Part shown: one piece after another, positions 17,498-36,061 of the stretch
Position numbering within the stretch: position 1 is the first letter of the stretch
Layout: every line of letters starts with the position of its first letter
Source of the DNA: Methanocaldococcus fervens AG86
GTDB lineage: Archaea > AGJL01 > Methanococci > Methanococcales > Methanocaldococcaceae
Assembly: GCF_000023985.1 (NCBI RefSeq)
Contig: NC_013156.1
Span: 1,104,363 to 1,168,362 of the forward strand
Length of the DNA stretch: 64,000 nt
Direction: 5' to 3'
The notes under the pieces: model-generated
The model's database searches: none
The model's input: only the letters and a program-made list of their open reading frames with translations
Told to the model about the DNA's origin: nothing
Made by a program: the position numbers and the translations under genes

Positions 17498-18598
17498 ATG
17501 CAATATATTTATCCATTCACTGCAATCGTTGGACAGGAGAAGATGAAGAAGGCTTTAATTTTAAATGCAATAAATCCAAAGATTGGTGGAGTTTTAATTA
17601 GAGGAGAGAAGGGAACAGCAAAATCCACTGCTGTTAGAGCTTTAGCTGATTTACTTCCAGAGATTGAAGTTGTTGAAGGCTGTTCATTCAACTGCGACCC
17701 TAATGGAGAGCTGTGTGATATCTGCAAAGAAAAGAAGGATAAAGGAGGATTAAAAATAACAAAAAAGAAAATGAAAGTTGTTAATCTTCCAATAGGGGCT
17801 ACTGAAGATAGAGTTATTGGAACTTTAGATATAGAGAAAGCAATAAAAGAAGGAATTAAAGCATTGGAGCCAGGTATTTTGGCAGAGGCAAATAGAAACA
17901 TCCTATACATTGATGAAGTTAATTTGTTAGATGACCATATAGTTGATGTTCTATTGGATGCTGCAGCAATGGGGTGGAATATTATTGAAAGGGAAGGAGT
18001 TAAGATAAAGCATCCTTCAAGATTCATATTAGTTGGAACTATGAACCCTGAAGAAGGAGAGCTGAGACCTCAAATTTTAGATAGGTTTGGTTTAATGGTT
18101 GATGTTGAGGGATTAACTGATATTAAGGATAGAGTAGAGGTTATAAAGAGAGTTGAAGAATTTAATAATAATCCAGAGGAATTTTACAAAAAATTTGAAG
18201 AAGAGCAAAATAAATTAAGAGAGAAGATAATTAAAGCGAGAGAAATTTTAAAAGATGTTGAGATTAGCGATGAACTCTTAGAATTTATATCTAAAGTTTG
18301 TATTGAATTGGGAATTCAAACCAATAGGGCGGATATAACGGTTGTTAGAACTGCTAAGGCGTTGGCAGCCTACAACGGAAGAACAAAGGTAACTTTGGAT
18401 GATGTTAAAGAGGCGATGGAGTTAGCTCTTCCACATAGAATGAGGAGAAAACCGTTTGAACCACCACAATTAAATAAGGAAAAATTAGAGCAGATGATTA
18501 ATGAATTTGAGCAACAAATAAATAAAAATGAAGAAGAGAAAGAAAAAGAGGAAAAAAAGGAAAATAATGACGTAAAAAAAAAAACAAGAATAAATTAA
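17498..18598 (+). CDS. chlI: ChlI-like AAA+ chelatase subunit (zero-frame product)
   Basis: A 366-residue AAA+ protein of the magnesium/cobalt chelatase I family. It has Walker [17 protein letters not shown] near residue 36, Walker [16 protein letters not shown] near residue 140, sensor 1 [19 protein letters not shown] and the arginine-finger region [11 protein letters not shown]. Cys-rich [15 protein letters not shown] (near residue 68) may bind a metal and is seen in methanogen homologues. After residue 335 the protein becomes Glu/Lys-rich and ends just after an 11-A run. A -1 shift there continues into a vWA domain. The zero-frame product would serve as the small chelatase subunit, working with cobN, which converges on the locus. 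Confidence 0.9.
18574..18584 (+). other. Poly-A (A11) -1 frameshift site in chlD
   Basis: Eleven consecutive A residues follow GT. The zero frame reads GTA AAA AAA AAA ACA and stops at TAA 18596-18598. A -1 slip re-reads one A, giving AAA AAC AAG, and the frame then stays open to 19542 through a vWA domain. The vWA frame has no convincing start of its own with a GGTGA site before 18802. Frameshifted chlD genes making both chelatase subunits are described in the literature for organisms with cobN. Confidence 0.75.
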
Positions 18599-19542
18599 AT
18601 AATGAATCAAATAATAATGAGAATAATAATCCAAATAATGAACATGAAAATAATAATCAAAACCAAGATGAAAATACTGGAGATTTTGAGCAAACATTTG
18701 GTATAGATGAGAGCGTTAAAGTTAATCCAAAACTTATACAATTCAAGATTAAAGATAACATCCACAGATATAGCTCTGGAAGGCATATTAAAAGCTACAG
18801 CATGAGAGGGAGATACATTAAATTTAAACCTGCAAATGATAAAATCGTTGATATTGCCTTTGATGCAACATTTAGAAGAGCCGCTATTCACCAAAAAAAG
18901 AGAAGAGAGAAAGCAAATAAAAAATTAGCTATATATTTGGAGAGAGAAGACATCGTCGAGAAAGTTAGGCAGAGGAAGATATCTTCCCACATATTGTTTG
19001 TTGTAGATGCAAGTGGTTCAATGGGAGCTATGAAAAGGATGGAAGCCGCTAAAGGGGCTATAATATCCCTACTCTTAGATGCTTATCAAAAAAGGAATAA
19101 AATTGGAATGATTGCATTTAGAAAAGATAGGGCTGAGCTTATTTTACCTTTTACATCTTCAGTAGAGCTTGGGGAAAAACTACTAAAAGATTTACCAACA
19201 GGGGGAAAAACTCCTTTAGCTGATGCGTTTATAAAAAGTTATGAGGTTTTTGATAGGGAAATAAGGAAAAATCCTAATATTATCCCAATAATGATTGTGA
19301 TAAGTGATTTTAAACCAAATGTGGCTGTTAAAGGAGATTACATTAAAGAGGTTTTTGATGCATGTGAGAAGATAGTTGAAAAAGGAATTAACGTTGTATT
19401 AATTGACACAGAACCACAATCCTTTATAAAAATTGGAATTGGAAAAGAAATAGCTGATAGATTTGGATTTAAATATTACAAAATAGAAGAATTGAGCAAA
19501 GATAAGCTCTTGGATATTTGTAAGGGTTTTGTAGAATATTAG
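18583..19542 (+). CDS. chlD: ChlD vWA portion, reached by -1 frameshift from chlI
   Basis: In the -1 frame the protein continues for about 319 residues. First comes an Asn-rich linker at 18583-18700 ([20 protein letters not shown]), then a bridging segment [17 protein letters not shown], then a vWA domain. The metal-ion-dependent adhesion site is intact: VVDASGSMG near 19009, the threonine in [10 protein letters not shown] and the aspartate in VISDFKPN. The fusion with the ChlI part would be about 681 residues, normal for ChlD. Low-complexity linkers between the AAA+ and vWA parts are usual in this family. The stop overlaps the cobN stop region on the other strand by 4 bases. A separate translation start at 18802 (ATGAGAGGG) is possible but lacks a binding site. 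Confidence 0.85.
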
Positions 19543-34534: not shown

Positions 34535-35443
34535 TTAGATTGATTGTAGTTCTTCAGCCCATTTTTTTATTCTTCTAATTTCAATTTCTAACATTTCAAG
34601 AGTTTCAGGGTTTATTGGATTACCTGCAAGCTTTTCAATATACATTAATGACATTATATGGTCACTTGGGGATAACTTATCTTTTGGCCTTACCTCTTCT
34701 GTATCAAATACAATTCTCATATTTTTGGTAAACTTCAATAATTTTAGTATAACTTTGTCGGATATCCATCCAATTTTGTTATAGTAGTCTAAAACATCAG
34801 GCAAATTTTTAATGCCTACTTTACCAATCAAAAATTCCAACCATTTGAATATCAATGTCATAGAGACTGCATCTTCAGGGATATCGTTAAGTATATATTG
34901 CTTTTCTTCTTCAATAGGTTCCATGGAACTTCCCTCCTCAATAGGTTCTTCAGGGATTTCTTTTATTTCCAAGACCTCTTCTTCTACTACTTTTTCAATT
35001 TCTTCAGGTTCTTTTACCTCTTTTTTAACTTCTTCTTTTTCTTCCTCCACTTTTGTACTTTCTGTCTCCTCTTCAACAGCTTCTTCAGTTTTTTCAGCAG
35101 TTTCAGGTTTCAATTCCTCTGAGAGTTTGGTTGAAGCAGTCATTGTAGCAAGCTTCATTATGGTATCGAGTTTTTGCTCAAGACTCTGAAGTTTTTTATT
35201 AAGCTCTTCAGTTTTGTCTTCTTTTCTTTTAGATAGGACTTCAGTAATTCTCTCTACGATTTTATCAAGCTGGCTTTTGGTAACTCTTTTACCTCTTAAA
35301 TTATTTTTTAGTAGTATTATGACGAAAGAAGGTAATTTTGATTTTAAGTTATCTAAATATTCTTCAATTTCATCTTCAGTAAGTATTTCCTCATCAGAGA
35401 TTATAGGAATCGATGACATTTCATTCATTGTTTTTTGTATCAT
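34535..35443 (-). CDS. flaD: Archaellum accessory protein FlaD
   Basis: A 302-residue protein in three parts: a helical N-terminal domain (SKLPSFVIILLKNNLRGKRV), a very acidic Glu-rich low-complexity linker at about residues 110-190, and a C-terminal FlaD/E domain homologous to FlaE. The start at 35443 has GGGGAGGATACCC upstream and overlaps the flaC stop by about 20 bases. The acidic linker explains the strongly biased open frame on the opposite strand, which is not a gene. Confidence 0.92.
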   Translation of the reverse strand: MIQKTMNEMSSIPIISDEEILTEDEIEEYLDNLKSKLPSFVIILLKNNLRGKRVTKSQLDKIVERITEVLSKRKEDKTEELNKKLQSLEQKLDTIMKLATMTASTKLSEELKPETAEKTEEAVEEETESTKVEEEKEEVKKEVKEPEEIEKVVEEEVLEIKEIPEEPIEEGSSMEPIEEEKQYILNDIPEDAVSMTLIFKWLEFLIGKVGIKNLPDVLDYYNKIGWISDKVILKLLKFTKNMRIVFDTEEVRPKDKLSPSDHIMSLMYIEKLAGNPINPETLEMLEIEIRRIKKWAEELQSI

Positions 35444-36016
35444 GGGTATCCTCCCCGGACACTGACTTTATAATCTCTTCCTCCAATACATCTTCAATTA
35501 TCCCCTCAAGATCAATATCAAGCTGATTTAAGTACAATGAACCCAATATTATTAGGTCATTTGTTAACTCTTCAACAGTTTTTTTAAGCCTTTTATAGTC
35601 AGTTTCTAACCTTTCAAGTTTTTCTAAACTCGTTGCGGTTATTTTTGAAACACCAATAAACGGGTTAATTTGGTTTGAAACTACTTCATAGAGGGCCATT
35701 ATATCTTGAAGGTTTTCGTTGATCTTATTGATCTCTATCCTTAGCATCTCATTTTCTTTTCTTAAGTTGTTGAGTGAAGATTCAAATCTTGGTAATCTCG
35801 ATTCAATGTCATTGATTTTTGCCATTAAACCTTCAGTAGTTTCTGTCAGCTCTCTAACGGTTCGTTCAAGTTCATCGTATTTGTCAATATCTTCAAACTC
35901 TTCAAGAGTCATTTCATCAATAGAAAGTTCATCTGTTTCAGTTTGTTCTTGTTTTTTTTTAATTTTAAATTAGATAGCTTGTTTTTTATTGATTCAATAA
36001 TATCTTTTACCCCCAT
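35421..36016 (-). CDS. flaC: Archaellum accessory protein FlaC, interrupted by a -1 shift at A9
   Basis: The natural start is ATG 36016 (GGTGAACCTTT upstream). The zero frame gives MGVKDIIESIKNKLSN and then, after a run of nine A (35952-35960 on this strand), meets TGA at 35909-35911. A -1 shift at TTA AAA AAA AAC gives KKKQEQTETDELSIDEMTL and joins the remaining 163 residues, a coiled coil (RTVRELTETTEGLMAKIND) plus the conserved C-terminal FlaC segment. The joined protein is about 198 residues, close to FlaC in related species. The downstream part alone could start at 35912, but no binding site is there. A AAA AAC is a classic slippery heptamer; an assembly error in the A run would give the same picture. 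Confidence 0.85.
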
Positions 36017-36061
36017 AAAGGTTCACCTAACCCAAGTGTTTAAAAAAATTTATTGGACCAA

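Follow-up and report, generated by a model that had tools for sequence, protein, structure and literature searches.

The archaellum operon of Methanocaldococcus fervens AG86 lies on the minus strand of the window, by which we mean the whole stretch of 64,000 nucleotides analysed here, taken from the 1,485,061-base chromosome within the 1,507,251-base genome. The archaellin genes come first in the operon and are followed by flaC, flaD, flaE, further fla genes and finally flaH, flaI and flaJ. The flaC gene opens at an ATG at 36016, preceded by the ribosome-binding site AGGTGA (35 codons plus TGA at 35909-36016 for the reading frame, 36023-36028 for the site, both on the minus strand), and either GGTG(A/G) or GGGGAT is found 5' of the start in all 26 flaC genes compared. 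The N-terminus encoded in this zero frame, MGVKDIIESIKNKLSNLKLKK, is a conserved amphipathic peptide, and the tail that follows the A run described below is not conserved. The body of the gene, which consists of an acidic linker and then the FlaC_arch coiled coil, occupies the -1 frame (35421-35951, minus strand) and matches the Pfam profile FlaC_arch (PF05377) with 75.8 bits against a curated cut-off of 27.8 (E 3.5e-21). Both parts meet at a run of nine A (35952-35960, minus strand) in the zero-frame context TTA AAA AAA AAC, in which two slippery heptamers can be read on the minus strand, A_AAA_AAA at 35954-35960 and, overlapping it, A_AAA_AAC at 35951-35957. The sole nearby ATG of the body frame (35910-35912, minus strand) overlaps the zero-frame TGA as ATGA and has no Shine-Dalgarno motif, and flaD (34535-35443, minus strand) starts within the 3' end of flaC. 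An earlier note on this DNA had placed an A9 run in this context at these positions, and had reported that the flaC start and the conserved body, down to 35421, belong to different frames; the coordinates and the context were confirmed, and the frame difference is borne out, with the zero-frame stop at 35909.

The search for FlaC among relatives covered the order Methanococcales. Ten of the 14 Methanocaldococcus genomes sampled carry flaC, and all ten show the same -1 break, so that the proposed splitting of the gene at its A run extends to every Methanocaldococcus flaC compared; an alignment of these genes, which had been suggested as a check, reveals no in-frame run in any relative within it. 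The runs themselves read A9C in six genes, A9G in three (one of them A9GA8T) and A11G in one. Despite these changes in length, and despite changes in position, the -1 phase is kept, as, measured from the ATG, the run ends after 59, 62, 65 or 68 bases, each equal to 2 modulo 3. Among the eight Methanothermococcus-type genes of the sister family, seven, which come from two genera, read ATA AAA AAA AAA TAG, an A10 run with the body again in the -1 frame. The eighth, L035 (also L005), lies on a short contig of a mixed metagenome-assembled genome (MAG) and carries A9 at the site of the A10 of its relatives, so that its body falls in the +1 phase; this allele reflects either genuine length variation or a misassembly. 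The comparison thus comprises 26 genes, 18 of them run-bearing (10 Methanocaldococcus and 8 Methanothermococcus-type) and 8 unbroken, and the break is in the -1 direction at A9-A11 in 17 of the 18, L035 being the lone exception. A homopolymer of at least nine A (A9-A11) stands at the frame change in all broken genes, every -1 case has A_AAA_AAC, A_AAA_AAG or A_AAA_AAA in the zero frame at the overlap, and the two overlapping open reading frames, the downstream one in the -1 frame, are both conserved as coding. No second, intact flaC was found in these genomes, each of which has one FlaC gene above the Pfam cut-off; the sole departure is a mixed MAG (G027) in which two contigs carry such a gene.

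In eight genomes of the order, seven of Methanococcus and one other (G014-G020 and G022), flaC is read in one frame, and no run of eight or more A is present in any of these eight genes. They encode the N-terminal peptide, the linker and the body as one protein, which can be aligned with the predicted -1 fusion product. The intact N-terminus MPNISEIIEEIKNKIKLGKKK aligns without gaps, across the junction, with the predicted -1 product of the Methanothermococcus type, MPNISEIIDEIKKKIAFGKKK, and the FlaC of Methanocaldococcus has a similar N-terminal amphipathic helix. The genomes with an unbroken flaC are probably those of mesophiles, growth temperatures having been derived from inferred species identities. 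In a FlaH-FlaI-FlaJ tree, broken flaC genes fall in the Methanocaldococcus group and among the Methanothermococcus-type genes, and the placement of G022 is weakly supported. To account for this distribution, the break must have originated twice, or originated once and moved, and the probable mesophiles must have lost it or never had it. A double origin of the device is probable, since the run occupies codons 12-14 in the Methanothermococcus type and, approximately, codons 17-22 in Methanocaldococcus.

Both flanks of the run bear marks of selection. In pairwise figures that pool related sequences, and with synonymous sites strongly diverged (pS 0.54-0.64), pN/pS is 0.38 in Methanocaldococcus and 0.11 in the Methanothermococcus type for the short stretch before the run. 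From the run to the point at which the body could first start it is 0.67 and 0.34, and over the whole body 0.23 and 0.20. These values suggest that both sides of the run are translated and constrained as protein, the constraint on the Methanocaldococcus linker (0.67) being only weak. The run is also unbroken even though, among the invariant lysine columns of the body, only 2 of 8 in Methanocaldococcus and 3 of 9 in the Methanothermococcus type are AAA in all species. The possibility that the zero-frame tail after the run serves as a functional C-terminus was rejected, as this tail is 0 to 16 residues long and its sequence varies.

Long A runs are scarce in M. fervens. Pattern searches across the 1.5 Mb genome located nine loci with an A9+ run (nine A or longer), whereas shuffles lead one to expect about 23 matches per 64 kb. 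When the coding sequence of the window was resampled synonymously with the proteins kept, ordinary coding sequence held one A9+ run against 6.0 expected, A8 runs were halved (7 versus 14.8 expected), and runs of five to seven A reached at least the expected number. Runs of nine or more A are therefore avoided, while runs of seven are not. Frame changes in the -1 direction occur at two of the nine genomic A9+ loci, flaC and chlD, both inside the window. Two further loci illustrate runs without a frame change. At L048 (G000:C1:607938-607946), an in-frame A9 stands at the very start of a response-regulator-like, cheB-like gene (MVPQKKIRVLVVDDSAFMRKV), a further motility-related gene, in which it is tolerated; at L050 (G000:C1:1103895-1103903), just beyond the window, an in-frame A9 lies late in an open frame of 442 residues.

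The second of these frame changes serves as a known comparator. The chlD gene (Mg/Co-chelatase; 17498-19542, plus strand) encodes its AAA+ part at 17498-18598 and its VWA part in the -1 frame, and the shift site is an A11 run (18574-18584, plus strand), the longest A run of the M. fervens genome. It has been established that chlD is subject to -1 frameshifting in Methanocaldococcus and Methanococcus, M. fervens being listed among the carriers (PMC3711429, PMC9227772), and chlD cassettes assayed in E. coli shifted with efficiencies of 10%, 40% and 63% at 7, 9 and 11 A (PMC3711429). The gene was surveyed in 25 genomes of the order, in two of which it was unreadable with the motifs used. Where a -1 shift could be read in a thermophile-type chlD, the base after the run is C in every gene but that of G008, almost invariably in the form NTA AAA AAA AAC. 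In three Methanococcus genes (L115, L116 and L117), the shift site is TCA AAA AAC TAG or TCA AAA AAT TAG, with six A only, and is likely to represent a purely ribosomal version. Two genes of the Methanothermococcus group, L110 (G021) and L113 (G024), appear to be fused in a single frame, with 701 and 652 residues. The likeness to flaC lies in the organisms, the direction of the shift and the cassette NTA AAA AAA AAC, shared in most thermophiles. However, chlD shifts only once its AAA+ domain is complete (about 360 codons in M. fervens), and both products can therefore be functional, whereas the flaC shift falls at codons 12-22, and what is made without it is a stub; moreover, three Methanococcus genomes retain the chlD shift and have flaC in one frame.

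Several explanations can be weighed for a break of this kind. The earlier note had left a choice between frameshifting and a miscounted run, and some sequencing platforms do miscall homopolymers, but the break recurs in ten genomes of Methanocaldococcus and in genera related to it, and the differing contexts A9C, A9G, A11G and A10T all preserve one phase. This recurrence refutes sequencing error as a general explanation and upholds the frameshifting half of that alternative. A decaying pseudogene is hard to reconcile with selection on both flanks and with FlaH, FlaI and FlaJ being intact in 20 of the 20 genomes compared, so that the chance of either artefact or decay is negligible. Homopolymers mutate easily, and the A9 of one MAG contig against the A10 of its relatives is what would be expected if run length changed during DNA replication and switched archaella on and off. 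Nevertheless, an in-frame run is absent from all 18 run-bearing genes, 17 of which share one -1 phase, and the length differences among these 17 preserve it. In addition, Methanocaldococcus villosus, a very fast swimmer (PMC3709152), has a broken flaC if G012 is correctly assigned to it by inference, and phase variation is accordingly very improbable. Hardly more credit can be given to a pair of cistrons, in which the zero-frame reading frame would be a leader peptide and an internal codon would serve, through coupling or reinitiation, as a separate start for the body. The overlap of the M. fervens TGA with the body-frame ATG at 35912 does recall coupled genes, but the other Methanocaldococcus genes in the comparison showed no ATG at this position, and coupling at this ATGA was rejected as not conserved. 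In other species the first ATG, GTG or TTG of the body frame lies 18-53 codons past the run, with a Shine-Dalgarno-like motif at the first body start in G012 only. The stretch before any possible body start remains open and under selection, and in the intact relatives peptide, linker and body form one protein; an arrangement of two cistrons is thus unlikely.

A more serious contender is slippage of RNA polymerase, which would add one A within A9-A11 and so bring a fraction of the mRNA into frame, to be read normally by the ribosome. No broken flaC gene has a run shorter than nine A, transcriptional slippage at nine A has a precedent in dnaX of Thermus thermophilus (PMC3711429), and ordinary genes contain many A7 heptamers but avoid A8-A9 runs. 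The base that follows the flaC run varies (C, G or T), as RNA polymerase slippage would allow. The A9 allele of L035, which a -1 shift would not rescue and which to that extent counts against recoding by the ribosome, could be rescued by such slippage as well. No conserved RNA stimulator was found downstream of the flaC run either, hairpins with z below -2.6 being present in 3 of 16 flaC genes and lineage-specific; a conserved downstream stimulator is, however, not obligatory at long A runs. Against the polymerase stands chlD, in which the run of the same cassette is followed by a near-invariant C and the six-A runs of the mesophiles are too short for this mechanism. The nearly invariant C and the six-A versions together point to the ribosome. 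A literature search on slippage of archaeal RNA polymerase at homopolymers yielded nothing relevant. On balance, transcriptional slippage is a real possibility that we consider somewhat improbable, and the ribosome is favoured as the slipping agent.

Judged from these sequence comparisons, flaC of thermophilic Methanococcales is very probably a recoded gene, brought into frame by a -1 event at its A run by one route or the other, with the ribosome as the favoured agent. Initiation at the ATG at 36016, behind AGGTGA, would yield about 20 residues of amphipathic helix, and a one-base backward slip at TTA AAA AAA AAC would then direct the synthesis of the remainder of FlaC in the -1 frame. On A_AAA_AAA, two lysine tRNAs could slip in tandem without any mismatch, and decoding without a slip would end after 35 residues in M. 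fervens and after 14-37 in relatives, leaving a stub. That deletion of flaC abolishes archaella in Methanococcus maripaludis has been demonstrated (PMC4187195, PMC2666748), and since M. villosus is motile although the flaC assigned to it is broken, living cells presumably read across the break. With the shift site so early in the gene (codons 12-22), and with a stub as the outcome when no shift occurs, the device would act as a gate and not as a route to two proteins. The site would gate the output of FlaC, and perhaps the translation of flaD as well, relative to the archaellins encoded just upstream. The earlier note had suggested that slip efficiency would tune FlaC dose, an idea that fits the evidence: we infer slippage at the run, with the ribosome doing most of it and the slip rate setting the dose. 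The simplest reason for the retention of such a device may be the setting of FlaC, and perhaps of the overlapping flaD, against the archaellins. It may further be proposed, tentatively and with the odds somewhat against it, that an early -1 gate in flaC evolved twice, at different codons, among the thermophilic Methanococcales and that temperature, or the condition of the translation machinery, sets the slip rate and through it the amount of FlaC and the number of archaella.

The proposed gate can be set beside several known systems. The release factor 2 gene prfB is also controlled by an early frameshift, in the +1 direction, that gates the whole product; direction, signals and sensing differ from those of flaC, for which we know of no self-sensing. 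The dnaX gene, in which transcriptional slippage occurs at A9 in T. thermophilus and A_AAA_AAG is used in E. coli, resembles flaC in run length and in its -1-type outcome (PMC3711429), but its shift provides an alternative C-terminus for a long protein, while that of flaC is required for making the protein at all. An archaeal parallel in kind, a -1 shift at an A-rich heptamer in a hyperthermophile, is fucA1 of Saccharolobus solfataricus, in which programmed -1 frameshifting at A-AAA-AAT amounts to about 10% in in vitro translation (PMC8211752). That interruption is confined to S. solfataricus strains and is accompanied by a putative stem-loop and rare codons; the flaC shift, by contrast, lacks signals of this kind and is conserved in more than one genus. 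In reviews of 2021 and 2023, fucA1 is treated as the sole demonstrated -1 frameshift in a cellular archaeal gene (PMC8211752, PMC9855744), and the former names chlD as a candidate (PMC8211752). The earlier note knew of no report of dose tuning by slip efficiency for the archaellum, and literature searches on flaC and archaellum frameshifting gave no case, although the supplementary tables of GeneTack may list one.

If this reading is true, automated annotations of flaC in these genomes are likely to be truncated or labelled as pseudogenes. The gene would represent a further archaeal case of recoding, conserved over much of an order and with a clear loss phenotype in M. maripaludis, and it would be testable in a genetically tractable relative, in which a recoded and a plain flaC could be compared for swimming. 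Translational recoding would then constitute a control point of archaeal motility.
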